Of a DNA stretch of 33,425 nucleotides, positions 1-33,425 are shown piece after piece. The stretch lies in IMG/VR virus record IMGVR_UViG_3300018080_000085, positions 1-33,425 of that record; one strand, 5' to 3'. Every line of letters starts with the position of its first letter. Within the stretch, counting starts at the first letter, position 1. Under the pieces are notes generated by a model. That model did not search any database. It saw only the letters and a list, made by a program, of their open reading frames with translations, and had not been told where the DNA came from. This DNA is from a virus. A program made the translations under genes and the position numbers.

Positions 1-107
1 CAGGCGGTCCTCTTGAATTGAATTCAACAGGTGCTTGGAAGATGGCTCATGCATCGGCTATTACAAACGATGCGTGGATAGCAAATCTTAAATCTACACT
101 TGCATAA
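1..107 (+). CDS. Major capsid protein, 3' end (second copy of the overlap)
   Basis: This is the C-terminal end of the same major capsid gene that finishes at 33409, seen again because the circular sequence overlaps itself. It ends with a TAA at 105-107, followed by the AAGGAG ribosome binding site of the next gene. It is not an extra gene. The full protein is described under the capsid entry at 31750-33409. Confidence 0.9.
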   Translation, partial: GGPLELNSTGAWKMAHASAITNDAWIANLKSTLA

Positions 108-123
108 GGAGTTATCAAATGAA
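1..123. repeat. Terminal overlap, left copy (identical to 33303-33425)
   Basis: Bases 1-123 match 33303-33425 exactly. The segment contains the last codons and stop of the major capsid gene and the start of the next gene. Both copies run through coding sequence with no break in gene order, so the simplest reading is a circular or circularly permuted genome written with a short assembly overlap. A genuine short direct terminal repeat of the virion DNA is possible but less likely, because the repeat begins and ends at arbitrary points inside genes. Confidence 0.9.
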
Positions 124-1090
124 CGATAATGTAACAATCCAACAGGGCTCTTTCACCTCTGATGGATCTGCCAAAACTCTTAAAGTAAGGTCAGGAATTG
201 ATTGGATTAAAGTTGTTAACTTTACTCAATCAGCAGCAACAAACAACGGATATGGTTTTGAGTATTTCTGGCAATATGGAATGGGGACTACTTCTGTAAT
301 GAAGTATCACCCGGCAGGAGATCACACTGTAGCAGTTAATACATCCGCTAATTCATTGCAGGTTATTGACACATCTAACTATGCTTTAGGTGCAAATGTA
401 GCTGTAACTGGCGGAACTAATGTAACTCAGCCGGTATATTCTACTGCAAGCACTTCTGGTATGTCTGACGGATCTATTGTAAGAATCAACAGTACCAATC
501 ATGACAACATTAACGGATTAGATTTTTCTGTTGATACTGTTGTTTCCAATACATCTTTTAGGCTAGCTAACACTTTAGCTACAGCGCCTGGAAGAATAGC
601 TGGAGCAAATGGTTACTATAGGGTTGTGGCGCCTAATATTGAAATCTATAGAATGTTTACGCCAACAAACAGAAACATATCCAACATAACTCAAGCAACA
701 AGCGCTGTTGTAACAACACTTGTTGACCATGGATATGCTGTAGGACAAAGGGTTAAGTTTCACATTCCTGATGATAACGGAATGGTTCAGCTTGATGGTG
801 TTACAGCAAACATAACGGCTGTAACAGACAGTACGTTTACTGTTGATGTTGATACAAGTGCCTTTACAGCATTTGTATTTCCAACATATTTATTGTCACC
901 ATTTACACCTGCTTCTGTTGTTCCTATTGGAGACAACCCAGGGTATTCTGGTTATATGACTGCGCCAGGCAAGTTTGATAATCAGTCCTATGTAGGTGTT
1001 GTTTTAAATGCTGGAACAACTGCTCCTGCAGGAAACAATAACGATGTTATCTATTGGTGTGCTGGAAAATCGGAAACGATTACTAGCTAA
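119..1090 (+). CDS. Virion structural protein with E1-FCCH-like beta domain (candidate head decoration)
   Basis: A 323-aa, Ser/Thr/Asn/Gly-rich protein with no signal peptide or membrane segment. Residues ~190-250 carry the pattern 'TTLVDHGYAVGQRVKFH...LDGVTANITAVTDSTFTVDVD', the compact beta module usually annotated as ubiquitin-activating E1 FCCH-like in phage structural proteins. A related, less clear pattern lies at ~90-150. The gene starts 11 nt after the capsid stop with a good AAGGAG site, so it is co-transcribed with the capsid gene and ends at a strong terminator. Position and fold suggest a capsid decoration or head-associated protein made in large amount. That role is inferred; membership of a phage virion beta-protein family is more secure. 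Confidence 0.65.
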   Translation: MNDNVTIQQGSFTSDGSAKTLKVRSGIDWIKVVNFTQSAATNNGYGFEYFWQYGMGTTSVMKYHPAGDHTVAVNTSANSLQVIDTSNYALGANVAVTGGTNVTQPVYSTASTSGMSDGSIVRINSTNHDNINGLDFSVDTVVSNTSFRLANTLATAPGRIAGANGYYRVVAPNIEIYRMFTPTNRNISNITQATSAVVTTLVDHGYAVGQRVKFHIPDDNGMVQLDGVTANITAVTDSTFTVDVDTSAFTAFVFPTYLLSPFTPASVVPIGDNPGYSGYMTAPGKFDNQSYVGVVLNAGTTAPAGNNNDVIYWCAGKSETITS

Positions 1091-2543: not shown

Positions 2544-3116
2544 ATGGCATACGATGAAAATACACCAGCAAACATAAATGAGAGGTTTTCTGTTAGTCAG
2601 CAGAAGATAAGAGATAATTTTATTTCTTTAAAGTCTGCTATTGAGCAGGATCATGTTGCAATTGATGATGCAAATGAAGGTAAGCATAAGAGGGCTGTGT
2701 TTACTGAGCAGGCAGCGGACCAAGCCACATTGGCTTCTGAGATTGCTCTTTATGCAAAAGACAATGGTGCAGAGGCAAACATTTACCTAAGAAAGGAGTC
2801 TAATGGTGATGTGTTTAATCTTACTCCGTCTACTGCCGGTCATCTTGGGACTGGATATGAGTCATTGCCATCTGGGTTGCTAGTTAGATGGGGAACGCTG
2901 ACTCTTCCAGCTGGTCAGCAGAGTGGAACAGTAGCTGCAGTTTTTCCAACAAATATGTTTTCTGTTCAGCTAACTCCATCTGCTATTCCAACAGGAGACG
3001 CCAGAGATTACGTTCTTCACGCTGTCATAAATAGCAATGTTCAGTTTACTGTGTGGAGGACAAATGCATATAAGGGCACTGCTGCGCAGTTTCATTATTT
3101 AGCTATAGGAAATTAA
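2544..3116 (+). CDS. Short tail fibre protein with gp53-like C-terminal domain
   Basis: A 190-aa protein. The first ~80 residues are helical and charged ('NERFSVSQQKIRDNFISLKSAIEQDH'), consistent with a coiled stalk or attachment region. From ~105 the sequence has the tail-fibre pattern 'LPSGLLVRWGTLTLPAGQQSGTV...FPTNMFSVQLTP', with the aromatic, Thr-rich ending seen in gp53-like fibre C-terminal domains. A GTG codon directly precedes the chosen ATG; the AGGAG site at 2534-2538 fits the ATG better. It is packed between adaptor and stabilisation genes with 1-8 nt gaps, so it is part of the tail operon. Trimerisation and receptor contact are inferred from the family. Confidence 0.65.
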   Translation: MAYDENTPANINERFSVSQQKIRDNFISLKSAIEQDHVAIDDANEGKHKRAVFTEQAADQATLASEIALYAKDNGAEANIYLRKESNGDVFNLTPSTAGHLGTGYESLPSGLLVRWGTLTLPAGQQSGTVAAVFPTNMFSVQLTPSAIPTGDARDYVLHAVINSNVQFTVWRTNAYKGTAAQFHYLAIGN

Positions 3117-3117
3117 A

Positions 3118-5331
3118 ATGTCTTATGATCGCTTTTTGATAGCACCATATCGAAGCGGAATAGTAAATGATTTGCCTACTTGGCTCACTCTTCCGGAGTC
3201 GTTTAAGCAGCTTGAAAACGCCAATGTTTTTAGGGGAAGAATCAAGAAAAGATTTGGTGCTGACCTAATTGGTGACATCCTTACGTCTAGGGTGAGGTGC
3301 TCTCTTGGTGCCACAGACGTTACCGGTGCTGCAGCTGGAACAGTTCCTGGGAATATTTTTGGAACAATAGGGCAATTATTTTCTGTTGGAGACCAAATAT
3401 TTACGGTTAATCAGGCTGGGACACCTGCCCCGATGCTTGTTTCAACCGGGCCTGGCGGAGGCACATATAATACTACTACTGGTGCATATGTTTTTGCTGG
3501 AGTAACTCCGTCTACACAAGTCTATTGGTATCCTGCACAGCCAATTATGGGAATAACTCACTATGAATCTGGGTCTGTGAACGAGCACGTGACTTATGCA
3601 ATGGATACTCAGTTTATATATAAATATTCTGGTACTGACTGGATTAGGGATACTACATTTGCAGGTGCTTTTCAGGGAGATAACAAACAGTTTTTTTGGT
3701 CTGCAAACTATGTTGGTGCAGACGCTGGAAGTATAGCGCTGTTCACAACGAACTTTAATGCAATAACTTCCGGTGTTGCTCCTGCGTCAGATGACGCGAT
3801 GTATTTTTATAATGGAACAGCTTGGGCAGACTTTTCTGCTCAAACACAGTTTAACTCAAACCAAGATTTTGTTGCTTCTGCAAAAATGATACTTTCTTGG
3901 AAGAACAGGCTTCTTTTGTTAAATGTTATTGAGCAAAATAACGCTGCTGGTACTAACTCACACATAGCAAATAGAGTTAGATTTTCCCATAATGGCAGCC
4001 CAATAAAACCAACAGCTGCCGGAACATTTGGTCACCCTTGGCTTGAGAGACGTCAAACATATGTATCTGGAGCCACAACCTACATTGGTGATGGCGGAGG
4101 ATTCATTGATCTGCCAACGGAACAAGAGATAGTATCTGCAGCTATAGTTAAAGATAGGTTTATAGTCTACTGTGAAAGGAGTACTTGGGAGTTAGCTTAT
4201 ACTGGCAACCCTGCTATTCCATTTGTTTGGAAATCTATTGACATAAGTATTGGATCAGAGTCTACATACTCTACCATTCCATTTGACAATGCTGCTATTA
4301 CTGTTGCCACTACAGGTGTATATGCATGCGATGGAATAAGCGTAAACAGGATAGATAAGAAGATTCCAGACGAAATATTTTATTTTTTAAATACATCTGA
4401 AGGAACCTCAAGGGTTCATGGAATTAGGGATTTTTATAATGGTATGGCTTATTGGACATTTCTTGAAAACGAGAACTCTGGTATAGACACTTATCCAAAT
4501 AAGTTAATGGTACTTAATTACGAGACTGGTGCGTGGTCTTTTTATGATGATTGTATAACAACATTTGGTTTTTTTGAGCAATCTTCTGATTTTACGTGGG
4601 CATACCCGAGTTCTTGGGATACTAATGATAGTTGGGGTAGTTTTTATAATCAAGACCAGTCTAGGTTAATTGTAGCAGGGAATCATCAAGGTTACTTATT
4701 CACACTAAATAACGATAAACCAGAAAATGCCGATGTTATGACTGTTGCAGATTTTAATAATAACACGTTTTTGGTTCCTGATCATAATCTTGATACCGGA
4801 GACTTCATACAATTTAATTATGATACTATTTCTTCTATTCATAGAGTAAATAGAACAAGCAGTGATGAGTTTTATATTGTTGGTCCAGTTATTACTCCAA
4901 CATACGTTGGAGGTGGCACTATCAAAAGGGTAAGTAAGATAAGCATAATATCTAAGGATTGGAACCCATATGTAAAAACAGGAGATAGGGTTTATCTAGC
5001 AAGGATAGACTTCTGCGTTAAAAACACATTTGATGGCGAGGCTACAGTCTATTACTCAACAGACCTTACTGATCTAGATTTAGTTAACCAAGGAAGTTTA
5101 TCTGGGGCACAGATTGGAACAAATATTCTTGAAATGCATAAATATGCCATAGAATCCAATTTTTCAAATTATAAAGATATTTTATGGAGATCTATATATT
5201 TTCAGTCGTATGGAGATTCGATAAGTATTAATATATCGTTATCAGACGACCAAATGGTTAATAAGGACATATCTTTGTCTAATTTCGAGCTTCAAGGAAT
5301 GATTCTTTATACTATGAAAAACGGGAGATAG
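3118..5331 (+). CDS. Large tail-hub/stabilisation protein (P22 gp10-like role)
   Basis: A 737-aa protein, the largest in the tail operon. It has the repeated aromatic blade-like pattern of podovirus stabilisation proteins: 'YWYPAQPIMGITHYE', 'FFWSANYVGADAGSIALFTTNF', 'KNRLLLLNVIEQNN', 'RVRFSHNGSP', 'GGGFIDLPTEQEIVSAAIVK', 'YCERSTWELAYTGNPAIPF', 'RIDKKIPDEIFYFL' and 'MLVLNYETGAWSFYDD'-type strands. Near ~540-600 it has a module like the FCCH/beta units of other virion proteins ('NTFLVPDHNLDTGDFIQFNY'). No signal or membrane segment is present. It starts 1 nt after the previous stop, so translation is coupled. The gp10-like role (sealing the DNA channel below the adaptor) is inferred from family and position. 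Confidence 0.65.
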   Translation: MSYDRFLIAPYRSGIVNDLPTWLTLPESFKQLENANVFRGRIKKRFGADLIGDILTSRVRCSLGATDVTGAAAGTVPGNIFGTIGQLFSVGDQIFTVNQAGTPAPMLVSTGPGGGTYNTTTGAYVFAGVTPSTQVYWYPAQPIMGITHYESGSVNEHVTYAMDTQFIYKYSGTDWIRDTTFAGAFQGDNKQFFWSANYVGADAGSIALFTTNFNAITSGVAPASDDAMYFYNGTAWADFSAQTQFNSNQDFVASAKMILSWKNRLLLLNVIEQNNAAGTNSHIANRVRFSHNGSPIKPTAAGTFGHPWLERRQTYVSGATTYIGDGGGFIDLPTEQEIVSAAIVKDRFIVYCERSTWELAYTGNPAIPFVWKSIDISIGSESTYSTIPFDNAAITVATTGVYACDGISVNRIDKKIPDEIFYFLNTSEGTSRVHGIRDFYNGMAYWTFLENENSGIDTYPNKLMVLNYETGAWSFYDDCITTFGFFEQSSDFTWAYPSSWDTNDSWGSFYNQDQSRLIVAGNHQGYLFTLNNDKPENADVMTVADFNNNTFLVPDHNLDTGDFIQFNYDTISSIHRVNRTSSDEFYIVGPVITPTYVGGGTIKRVSKISIISKDWNPYVKTGDRVYLARIDFCVKNTFDGEATVYYSTDLTDLDLVNQGSLSGAQIGTNILEMHKYAIESNFSNYKDILWRSIYFQSYGDSISINISLSDDQMVNKDISLSNFELQGMILYTMKNGR

Positions 5332-27915: not shown

Positions 27916-27934
27916 ATAGGGTTGTGTGGTGAGT

Positions 27935-30022
27935 ATGAAAAAAAAAGGACTGTTCCCATCTGGAAGATCTGATCTTTACTCTGAGAAAGGGAATATTGTA
28001 AAAGACAAGATGGAGGATTTCTATAATCAGGTAAGTGCCAAAAACCAAGAGTTTTGGTATCAGGCAGACCTTGATCACAGGTTTGAGGCTGGAGACCAAA
28101 GCGTATGGTCTGAGGTTTATAGAAACGCACCAATTAAGCGTAAGAGTATATTTAGTTTTAATAGAATAAGACGCATAGTTAACATGGTTTCTGGGCATCA
28201 GAGAAGGGGGCGCAAGTCTACTGTTGTGGTTCCTGTGGAAAATGGGGATCAAAGAACTTCTGATCAATATACAAAGGTTGTGTCACACATACACAGAAAA
28301 GGACATGTTCTTGAGACCATATCCGATGCATTCCATGATGCAATGGTAACCGGACTGTCATTCCTGCATCTCTGGAACGATTATAGGCAAGATCCTGTTA
28401 GCGGCTCTCTGAAGGTGGATTATATGTCATATAATTCATTTCTTATTGATACTAATTTTAAAAAGCCAGACATGTCTGACTGTAATTCAATTTGGAAGAG
28501 GACGTTTATATCTAAAAATCAGGCCATGTCATTACTTCCAGACAAAACTAAGCAGGTTGAAGAGATTTGTGATGAGAGTGTTGATAATCTTTTCAGTTTT
28601 CTTCCTGAGGCCGACGACTATAACAGAAAAAGCTTATTGGCCTACGATGAGTATTATTATTTAGACAGTAGGAAGCAGCTGCTTTTGATTGACACCACTA
28701 CAGGAGAAAGCATGGAGTGGTCAGGGAGCAGTGACGAGTCTCCAGGCTCTCCGCTAGCCAGATTTTTAACTGCCTATCCATCGGTGATATTGTCTAGGGT
28801 GAGTGTTCCCTGTGTCAAATTGGCCACCCTTCTTCAGGGAACACTGCTCTATGACGATAAGAATCCACTAGGTATAGACGGATACCCTTTTGTTCCAGTT
28901 TTTGGATATTTTAATCCAAGTTCTCCAGATTATTCGCTTAAGATTCAGGGGCTTGTTAGGGGACTTAGAGATGCGCAATATTTATATAATAGAAGAAAGA
29001 ATATAGAGCTAGATATATTTGAGTCACAGGTAAATTCTGGGATAATATACAAGGAAGACGCTCTTGTTAATCCTGACGATGCGTTTCTTTCTGGACAGGG
29101 TAAGGGCTTGGCTCTTAAGGCAACAGCCCAAATGTCTGACGTGCAAAAAATTACCCCGCCACAGGTTCCGCCGTCTATGATACAAATAAGCGAGCTGCTT
29201 GCAAGGGAAATATCTGAGATATCTGGGGTCAACGAAGAGCTTCTTGGATCCGCTGTTGATGATAAGGCTGGAATACTTTCTATGCTTAGGCAGGGGGCAG
29301 GGTTGACAACACTTCAGGGTTTATTTGATCAGCTAGATAGATCGCAAAAGATATTGGGGTCAATCACTCTTTCTGCGATACAGGCAAACTATACTCCTGG
29401 TAAGATAAAAAGAATAATAGAAGAGGAACCAGCGCCTCAGTTTTATAGCAAGGCGTTTGGCAAGTATGACGCTGCTATAGAAGATGGATTTAACACAACA
29501 ACCCAGAAGCAAACAGAGTTTGCACAATTATTGAGATTGAGGGAGCTTGGTGTTCCTGTTCCAGATTCAACTATAATAAATGCAGCAACCCTGCAAAATA
29601 AGCAAAATCTAATTGAAGACATAGAGGCTAGTCAGCAACAGTCAGCACAAAGAGAGGCTGCTGTGCAGGAAGTCGTAAATAAGAAGCAGTTAGCTGAGAT
29701 AGAGCTCGCTAAGGCCAAGGTTGAGTCGGATATATCACTGGCAAAGGAGAGGGATTCTAGGGTTTATTCAAATATAGGGTTAATGCAGGAGCGTAGGCTT
29801 GAAGCGGAAAAAGATAAGACCCAATCACTTTTAAACCTGGTTAAGACGCTTCAGGAGATTGATGATGTTGATATTAACCAGTTAGTTAAGTTACTTAGTC
29901 TTTCAAAGATTGTTGATAAAACAACAAACACAGACAAGGTTCCGCTAGTATCTACTGCCATAGTTTCTGGAGTTACTAAAGACACAGATGCTGGCGGAGA
30001 TTCTAATAAGCCGGTGTTATAG
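27935..30022 (+). CDS. Portal protein (P22 gp1-like)
   Basis: A 695-aa protein from ATG 27935; GTG codons at 27926 and 27929 are alternatives (the AGGG at 27918-27921 fits them better). The N-terminal region matches P22-type portals: 'QAGDQSVWSE'-like 'RFEAGDQSVWSEVYRNAPIK', 'INMVSGHQRRGRKSTVVVPV' reading 'VNMVSGHQRRGRK', 'SFLHLWNDYRQDPVSG', then 'FVPVFGYFNPSSPDY', 'GLVRGLRDAQYLYNRRKNIE', and a helical crown (~555-640, Gln/Glu/Ala-rich coiled coil). Twelve copies form the DNA gate at one vertex and dock the terminase. Length agrees with the P22 family. It sits directly after TerL and before the scaffold-like gene, the normal order. Confidence 0.85.
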   Translation: MKKKGLFPSGRSDLYSEKGNIVKDKMEDFYNQVSAKNQEFWYQADLDHRFEAGDQSVWSEVYRNAPIKRKSIFSFNRIRRIVNMVSGHQRRGRKSTVVVPVENGDQRTSDQYTKVVSHIHRKGHVLETISDAFHDAMVTGLSFLHLWNDYRQDPVSGSLKVDYMSYNSFLIDTNFKKPDMSDCNSIWKRTFISKNQAMSLLPDKTKQVEEICDESVDNLFSFLPEADDYNRKSLLAYDEYYYLDSRKQLLLIDTTTGESMEWSGSSDESPGSPLARFLTAYPSVILSRVSVPCVKLATLLQGTLLYDDKNPLGIDGYPFVPVFGYFNPSSPDYSLKIQGLVRGLRDAQYLYNRRKNIELDIFESQVNSGIIYKEDALVNPDDAFLSGQGKGLALKATAQMSDVQKITPPQVPPSMIQISELLAREISEISGVNEELLGSAVDDKAGILSMLRQGAGLTTLQGLFDQLDRSQKILGSITLSAIQANYTPGKIKRIIEEEPAPQFYSKAFGKYDAAIEDGFNTTTQKQTEFAQLLRLRELGVPVPDSTIINAATLQNKQNLIEDIEASQQQSAQREAAVQEVVNKKQLAEIELAKAKVESDISLAKERDSRVYSNIGLMQERRLEAEKDKTQSLLNLVKTLQEIDDVDINQLVKLLSLSKIVDKTTNTDKVPLVSTAIVSGVTKDTDAGGDSNKPVL

Positions 30023-31749: not shown

Positions 31750-33409
31750 ATGGCACGGGTAACTACAACAATATTACCGCCACCAGTTCAGGTTCATTAT
31801 GATAGAGTTCTTCTTTCTATGTCAGATCCAAATTTAATTCATAGCAAAGTGGCTATGAAAAAGAATCTTGCAGCAAGAAGTGGGAACATTATCAGAATGG
31901 AAAGATATGATGATATAGGCACAGCTCCTGTTCCTTTGGGGAATTCTGGAATAACGCCTCCGTCAAAGTTAATGTCCTCTATATTTGTTGATGCTCAAAT
32001 CAATTGGTACGGTAAAGTGTGTGCCGTAGTAAAATCTTCTCTAATTGACTTGGAAGCCGAAGTGGTTTTTAACTAACTGGCGACAGGGCGGAAGGTTTTT
32101 TATGATTACTGTTAATATATCTGGATCTGAGATGAAATTTCTCTCTTGCGTTTCTAGCTTCTTTAGTGACGTGCACTCCAGTTTTTCCAACAGTCTTCCG
32201 GAATTCAATGGCATTAATAATCTGTTGTTTTTTTATTATGCTAAATTCACGAATTCCATTAAGGATATTCTCAAGGTTTTTTCCGAAGGCGTGCCAAGCA
32301 AAGCACTCTACGCTTCCAAGAGAATGTTTGTTATTCTTTATGGATATTTTTCCACCAAAGTTTCGGCATATCCATTTCATAAGATCCTTATTGGTGTTTG
32401 TAATTGTGAGTCTAGCTGTATAAACAGGGTATTTTCGTATTTTAGCAGTGCTTTTTTCTACGGAAATAGTCCCTTCTCCATCGATTATTCCAGCAAGATA
32501 AATAAAGCAATCTCTACTATCCATAATATTCCTTTGAATTTTGTTAATGATATGGTTAAGGGTACCATACTATTTATAAATAACCACCGTGAACGACTTA
32601 ACGAGAGGACTCCTGCTTGTAGCGGGGGATGCGAAAGTCTGAACTCCGATCGAAAGACGGAGAGGCGAATCCGAAGAGTTTTGCCCGCCATAGTAAATAT
32701 GGTCACAAAAGTAACAGAAATGACATGGGTTGAAATCAACGAACAAGTTGATTTAACTTCTCAATCACCTGTTTTGAATCAAAGAGCTATGCTTCTTGGT
32801 AGATCAATGAGGTTTACTGAGGATGATCTCATTAGAGATATGTTAGCAACAACAGCGTTTGCAATTTTTGCAGTTGGTGGTGTTAATGGAGATGCTCCTA
32901 CTGAAATGGCATTATCTGATGTTCAGGATGTTGTAAAAACGCTGTTGTCAAATGATGCAAAACCTGTTTCAAGTTCTATAGAAGGCACAAATAGATTTGG
33001 AACAGCGCCTATTCCTAATGCTTATATTGGCTTAAGTCACACAGACCTTTCGTCAACACTTGAAAACATGAATGGATTTGTTGGAACACACCAATATTCA
33101 AACCAAAGAACACTTGATATGGCAGAATGGGGTACCGTTGGAAGAGTTAGATTCTTGCTGTCTTCTCGCGGATCAGTAACTGCAAACTCCTCGGCCTTAG
33201 GTGAAGATGTATACAACACACTTATTTGTGGTATGGAAGCATACACAACAGTTGGTCTGGAAAACAGCAACGCCAAGTTTATATATCATGATTATAAGCT
33301 TGCAGGCGGTCCTCTTGAATTGAATTCAACAGGTGCTTGGAAGATGGCTCATGCATCGGCTATTACAAACGATGCGTGGATAGCAAATCTTAAATCTACA
33401 CTTGCATAA
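31750..33409 (+). CDS. Major capsid protein (N4-gp56-like), split by a group I intron
   Basis: Exons 31750-32013 (88 aa) and 32723-33409 (228 aa plus stop) join to a 316-aa protein. ATG 31750 has AAGGA 7 nt upstream; the longer open frame to 31630 has no site. Exon 1 holds 'TTTILPPPVQVHYDRVLLSM', 'GTAPVPLGNSGITPPSKLMS' and ends 'DAQINWYG'. Exon 2 begins 'TWVEINEQVDLTSQSPVLNQ' and continues 'RAMLLGRSMRFTEDDLIRDM'. The join restores the family's 'YG.....NEQV' spacing, characteristic of N4-gp56-type HK97-fold capsid proteins. It builds the icosahedral head. Without splicing, translation would run into the intron and stop at 32074-32076 (108 aa). The gene continues past the window break into 1-107. 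Confidence 0.88.
32014..32722 (+). ncRNA. Group I self-splicing intron in the capsid gene (709 nt)
   Basis: 5' exon end TACGGT (32008-32013) pairs with guide GCCGTA (32023-32028): P1, with the required U-G at the splice site. 3' exon ACAT (32723-32726) pairs with GTGT (32019-32022): P10. The intron ends in G (32722). P3 is TTCTCT (32037-32042) with AGAGGA (32604-32609). P7 is GACTT (32595-32599) with AAGTC (32635-32639). P8 is CTCCTGC/GCGGGGG (32610-32616/32622-32628), J8/7 is 6 nt, and P9 is CTCCG/CGGAG just after. A GGTT/AACC helix (32064-32067/32582-32585) would be P6, its loop holding the endonuclease gene. The RNA splices itself using guanosine. Confidence 0.88.
32069..32524 (-). CDS. 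LAGLIDADG homing endonuclease, antisense within the intron
   Basis: A 151-aa protein on the strand opposite to the capsid gene, inside the P6 loop. AAGGA lies 5 nt before its ATG (32524). The motif 'YLAGIIDGEGTISVEK' (residues 9-24) is a single LAGLIDADG signature with Glu17 as the catalytic acid. 'YTARLTITNTNKDLMKWICR', 'FGGKISIKNN' and 'FSIIKKQQIINAIEF' follow the family's beta-beta-alpha order. One motif and this length indicate a homodimer that cuts intron-less capsid alleles and drives intron spread by repair. All key residues are present, so it looks active. Its promoter is uncertain; a TATAAATA-type box lies upstream on the - strand near 32570-32580. Confidence 0.85.
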   Translation of the reverse strand: MDSRDCFIYLAGIIDGEGTISVEKSTAKIRKYPVYTARLTITNTNKDLMKWICRNFGGKISIKNNKHSLGSVECFAWHAFGKNLENILNGIREFSIIKKQQIINAIEFRKTVGKTGVHVTKEARNAREKFHLRSRYINSNHKKPSALSPVS

Positions 33410-33425
33410 GGAGTTATCAAATGAA
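33303..33425. repeat. Terminal overlap, right copy (identical to 1-123)
   Basis: Exact repeat of bases 1-123, covering the capsid C-terminus, the AAGGAG site and the first codon of the decoration gene. Joining the ends here gives a continuous circle in which the capsid gene flows into the decoration gene at 119. Confidence 0.9.

Follow-up and report, generated by a model that had tools for sequence, protein, structure and literature searches.

In 2013, mycobacteriophage LittleE was reported to have a major capsid gene interrupted by a group I-like intron that carries a LAGLIDADG-like gene, gene 14, on the bottom strand; splicing of the capsid intron was established by RT-PCR (PMC3706429). Antisense endonuclease genes in group I introns are also known from the nuclear rDNA of myxomycetes, as in Dsq.L2066, which encodes I-DsqI, and Dir.S956-2; activity was shown for I-DsqI, and the Dsq.L2066 gene is inserted in P9 and carries a spliceosomal intron (PMC9548176). 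In the td, nrdB, and nrdD introns of phage T4, I-TevI, II, and III are expressed from their own promoters, separately from the host gene, and hairpins gate the ribosome site (PMC2988022). T4 segD is an endonuclease gene in reverse orientation beside a capsid gene. For an intron inside a gene that is essential and expressed at very high levels, it is an open question how the mobile gene can be expressed while splicing is left intact.

Here we describe an intron that, like that of LittleE (JF937101), interrupts a major capsid gene and has an antisense LAGLIDADG-like gene inside it. The two introns are of different lineages, as model R1 matches the LittleE intron at only E=0.04, the LittleE gene sits 3′ of the core whereas the gene described here lies in P6a, and the two proteins have the motif region alone in common. 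The layout is thus already known from LittleE, and the present family is a separate intron lineage, of which we found no account in the open-licence literature searched. The T4 intron endonucleases differ in that they are encoded on the sense strand, belong to other endonuclease families, and reside in non-capsid genes; segD is a free-standing GIY-YIG gene with no intron, and the myxomycete cases involve eukaryotic rDNA and the His-Cys family.

The window, that is, the whole stretch of 33,425 nucleotides that was analyzed, is a phage contig from IMG/VR (record IMGVR_UViG_3300018080_000085). It has a direct terminal repeat of 123 bases (1-123 and 33303-33425) and is therefore probably a complete, circularly closing genome of ∼33.3 kb; the repeat falls inside the end of the capsid gene. 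At the right end of the window, a P22-like portal gene (27926-30022) is followed by further head genes and then by the interrupted major capsid gene, which has the following features.

31750-32013, plus strand: major capsid gene exon 1, 88 codons ending in ...INWYG, placed by tblastn to intron-less relatives
32014-32722, plus strand: group I intron of 709 nt with G as its final base, identified from empty sites in eight relatives, the core model, and covariation
32069-32524, minus strand: predicted LAGLIDADG homing endonuclease gene, 151 amino acids, ATG start, in the P6a loop
32530-32535, minus strand: Shine-Dalgarno-like AAAGGA, about six bases upstream of the ATG, read from the sequence
32559-32569, minus strand: candidate extended -10 element, (TA)TGGTACCCT, with TGGTACCCT at 32567-32559 and an inferred RNA start at ∼32552
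32723-33409, plus strand: major capsid gene exon 2, starting TWVEIN..., placed by comparison with intron-less relatives

The protein encoded by the joined exons matches the N4-gp56 capsid family (TIGR04387, E=1e-50) and PHROG 1357 (E=4e-40). Eight related contigs (L002-L005, L007-L009, and L012) carry a capsid gene that is uninterrupted at exactly the 32013/32723 codon boundary, which confirms the exon limits proposed in the first-pass annotation. Another contig, L010 from a second metagenome, starts within the intron (1-146, plus strand), which may mean that the population is mixed in its intron state.

Within the intron, the following elements of a group I core were placed, all on the plus strand.

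32008-32028: P1, exon TACGGT (32008-32013) with intron GCCGTA (32023-32028), by inspection
UGU just before the P1 element: possible P10, able to pair with exon 2 ACA, by inspection
32035-32041: P3 5′ strand, pairing with 32603-32609 at 7/7 pairs, with compensatory changes in the family
32049-52/32084-87: P4, within 32049-32097
32056-58/32079-81: P5
32088-91: P6 5′ strand, partner 32587-90
32094-97: P6a 5′ strand, partner 32582-85
32590-32692: 3′ core, with P7 (32595-99/32635-39), P3 3′ (32603-09), P8, P9, and P9.1

The U.G pair at the splice site is T32013.G32023, the final intron base is G32722, and the junction is set by the intron-less relatives; the P1 pairing is alike in L006 and L011, which have an intron at the same site. 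By inspection, P3 in the window is TCTTCTC/GAGAGGA and P7 is GACTT/AAGTC. A pattern made from the 3′ core common to the window, L006, and L011 recovered 20 stretches from IMG/VR, and 36 distinct cores were gathered once later loci had been added, 30 of which were aligned. Compensatory change was observed at 16 of 23 pairs in these 30 cores, and the window core scored 96 bits (E=2e-18) against the family covariance model, the window being among the model's 30 sequences. In nine gene-free relatives, 99.4% of cells were paired over the full core from P3 to P9.1, including the P3/P7 pseudoknot, with 23 pairs changed on both sides and two-sided changes at all seven pairs of P3. This level of pairing was reached by none of 500 shuffles and fell to 45-50% when the partner was shifted by one column.

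The intron was not detected by Rfam at gathering thresholds or at E values up to 10, and the family model was therefore built. Rfam also misses the gene-free relatives, and because the RT-PCR-verified LittleE intron is missed as well, this result speaks of the reach of the models, and an Rfam match is no defining feature. By sequence comparison, 32014-32722 is a group I intron, and its structure implies that it would self-splice. The empty sites and the core score likewise bear out the earlier placement of the endonuclease gene antisense within a capsid group I intron.

The 151-amino acid protein contains the motif YLAGIIDGEG and matches Pfam LAGLIDADG_1 above the curated cut-off (E=2e-7) as well as PHROG 5046 (E=1.7e-22). 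A profile search of the PDB and the predicted fold both led to I-CreI, I-MsoI, and I-CvuI, with I-CreI as the best PDB match; the AlphaFold model (pLDDT 90, pTM 0.82) retrieved I-CreI in Foldseek at E=5e-8. The predicted protein and these three enzymes have in common a single-motif LAGLIDADG fold and a length of ∼150-170 amino acids (TM-score ∼0.76), and differ in sequence, with ∼15% identity. I-CreI, I-CvuI, and I-MsoI are encoded by sense genes in organelle introns. Residues E17 and K98 are invariant across 32 relatives, and E17 aligns with I-CreI D20, which we take to mark the likely metal-binding position. Based on the predicted fold, the gene product appears to be an I-CreI-like single-motif LAGLIDADG endonuclease and should act as a homodimer. 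The first-pass annotation had described the open reading frame as complete, its motif as intact, and its ribosome site as good, a description that the Pfam match, the fold, the conserved E17, and the AAAGGA sequence support; it had also noted that the gene needs its own antisense transcript, which follows from its position on the strand opposite to the capsid gene.

At its end, the reading frame of the endonuclease enters the P4-P6 strand for 26 nt and then stops, and the last residues, PSALSPVS, are encoded by the complement of P5′/P4′/P6 5′. The same tail is present in L017, L019, L038, L059, L097, and L101, and its model confidence in the window protein is low (∼60), as for a disordered tail. 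We take the tail to be a by-product of the ribozyme strand.

No close relatives of the endonuclease were found in IMG/VR by a scan with the window protein alone; relatives were reached instead via capsid and core patterns. The closest of these, L011, carries an intron at the same site and the same antisense gene (61% amino acid identity), in whose frame no ATG, GTG, or TTG was found ahead of the motif; the sub-lineage may therefore be decaying. In L006 the intron is present and the gene is deleted, leaving a C-terminal remnant. The states of this one site thus comprise the intact window copy, a copy without the usual start, a deleted copy, and eight empty loci, a series that fits the usual cycle of gain, decay, and loss of homing endonucleases. 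Comparison of filled and empty alleles at one site among relatives indicates that the intron is mobile. Identity that is higher in the intron core than in the exons was not taken as proof of transfer, because constraint on the ribozyme gives the same pattern.

A profile scan of IMG/VR was seeded with an alignment of antisense genes and the best 80 loci were kept, and cores were placed with model R1. Among the 65 distinct loci, 44 genes are antisense to the flanking core, 9 are sense, and 12 have no core nearby, a ratio that is biased by the antisense seed and by the selection of the best 80. The first core-pattern scan, which was blind to orientation, gave nine introns with an antisense gene (the window included); the one sense gene that it gave is L020's second endonuclease. 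A tree of 73 genes, 49 of them antisense, requires 4 label changes, compared with 20.2 in shuffles, and groups the window gene with L038 (on the L011 contig) at 100/99. Nearly all antisense introns interrupt one capsid family, that of the window, at many positions, and several capsid genes hold two to five introns. The first-pass annotation had considered the arrangement rare, which is wrong for this family in view of the 44 to 9 count and the stability of orientation on the tree. Nor is the arrangement new in kind, LittleE having been reported in 2013. The antisense layout appears instead to be the usual one, the majority state of a large, old family of capsid-invading introns.

Individual loci add to the range of arrangements. 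Capsid genes of L021, L030, L031, L042, L081, and L083 each hold at least three family introns, which makes the capsid gene an intron hotspot. In L020, one capsid gene has two endonuclease introns, one antisense (core 2877-2974, minus; gene 3028-3534, plus) and one sense (core 3904-3998, minus; gene 4008-4472, minus). In L022 (4201-5100, minus) and also in L032, a double-motif LAGLIDADG gene of ∼300 amino acids lies antisense 3′ of the intron core, not in P6a. We rejected the idea that orientation is set by the class of gene interrupted, because introns with sense genes also occupy capsid and other structural genes.

A scan of bacterial and archaeal genomes found 59 related genes; a core could be clearly recognized in just two contigs, and lay on the antisense strand. 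Cultured phages gave cores in other settings, and no cultured relative was found that has both this intron and its antisense gene. In Stenotrophomonas phage StenR_269, the annotation gives a related endonuclease a gene to itself, in sense orientation between the scaffold and capsid genes (L118, 2962-3411, plus), and no family intron core was found at this endonuclease locus. In Desulfovibrio phage 7757 (L181, 3080-3854, plus), a family core is followed by an unannotated sense open reading frame with HNH-like cysteines that adjoins an apparently split ribonucleotide reductase gene. In MW202674 (L180, 2692-4207, plus), a single coat protein is annotated as two genes with a family core (75.8 bits) between them.

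The region upstream of the antisense genes contains a TGGYAYNCT-type element, to which TGGTACCCT of the window belongs, in 15 of 48 cases, compared with 0.3% in shuffles. Extended -10-like sites upstream of antisense genes have a mean score of 6.04 versus 4.74 in shuffled sequence (Fisher p=4e-9, relatedness uncorrected); the TATAAT match of the window, taken alone, is not significant (p=0.80). The candidate -10 element refines an earlier expectation of a minus-strand start at 32560-32600, moving the predicted start to ∼32552. Antisense genes show enrichment of an inverted repeat around the promoter (Fisher p=0.001; window p=0.88). In L019, L027, L039, L041, L043, and L054, the loop of such a repeat contains the -10 region, and the 3′ arm of the repeat adjoins the ribosome site. 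The arrangement resembles that in T4, where the ribosome site is hidden in long transcripts and freed by a promoter located within the hairpin (PMC2988022). Because the window has no convincing inverted repeat, we keep this observation as a lead for other clades.

We consider it likely that this is a mobile capsid-gene intron whose antisense endonuclease has a promoter to itself and is expressed independently of capsid transcription. The intron would self-splice, and capsid protein would accordingly be made from the joined segments 31750-32013 and 32723-33409, as the structure suggests. A short antisense mRNA would begin at ∼32552, driven by a promoter that lies within the P6a loop a little ahead of the start codon. 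To judge from its family and from the alleles with and without the intron, the enzyme would cleave capsid alleles that lack the intron where the two exons meet, with an intron-bearing copy serving as the template for repair. In terms of established phage biology, the reversed layout would allow the enzyme to be expressed without, and before, late capsid transcription and would keep ribosomes off the folding intron in the capsid pre-mRNA.

An antisense RNA could also act on splicing itself; the first-pass annotation suggested that it might disturb the folding of the intron or tie homing to capsid expression. An RNA from ∼32552 to 32069 or beyond would cover P6a, P6 5′, P4′, and P5′, and also P1-P3 if it ran on, and the stretch from the endonuclease stop codon to exon 1 showed no terminator-like site on the minus strand; on this geometry, interference with splicing is possible. 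It is unlikely, in our view, that the RNA lowers splicing by base-pairing with P1-P6, the 5′ half of the intron, and so makes endonuclease and capsid expression mutually exclusive in time: the conservation of orientation over deep divergence would suit such regulation, but selection for independent expression accounts for the same facts, and late in infection a weak antisense RNA should be greatly outnumbered by capsid RNA. A broader proposal, that the antisense position is ancestral and under selection in an intron and endonuclease lineage specialized on capsid genes, with a P6a-loop promoter (within an inverted repeat in several clades) driving early antisense expression, a tail co-encoded with the ribozyme strand, and antisense RNA tuning capsid splicing, is offered tentatively, and as a whole we regard it as doubtful.

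The gene might alternatively be a passenger or decaying relic without current expression, its orientation left from one ancient insertion. The closest relative without a start codon, the relative with the gene deleted, stops in 7 of 49 antisense relatives, and the weak promoter match of the window would all suit this reading, which we nevertheless judge quite improbable, since the window copy is intact and has a ribosome site, E17 and K98 are kept, promoter elements are kept across clades, and dN/dS is 0.27 between the window and L038 (dS about 1.0) and 0.05-0.09 within the clade L019/L020/L027/L101. The matched stretch is stop-free in 42 of 49 antisense genes, and none is stop-free in the other frames of that strand; by these measures the antisense genes are under purifying selection. 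The intron strand of the window also has an open frame of 454 codons (32045-33409, plus) that continues in register into exon 2; an ATG at ∼32102 is preceded by GGAAGG, and a similar open frame exists in L006. That this frame is the real product, an alternative capsid N terminus with the minus frame as its shadow, is very improbable indeed: its intron part has no family match, it is broken in L011, and the register-matched frame is open in 21 of 49 antisense relatives, as expected of a codon shadow, against 42 of 49 for the minus frame, to which the LAGLIDADG family, fold, and selection signals belong. We therefore rejected it as a gene and read its openness as a codon shadow of the minus gene.

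Independent expression of the endonuclease from the antisense strand thus remains our preferred explanation. The open-licence literature searched has one phage case of this layout on record, LittleE, and at least 44 distinct cases are described here, along with introns missed by Rfam and a protein tail whose codons lie opposite a catalytic RNA strand. With at least 44 antisense genes, mostly in one capsid family and over deep divergence, the question of how the mobile gene of an intron is expressed without spoiling splicing becomes testable by comparison.
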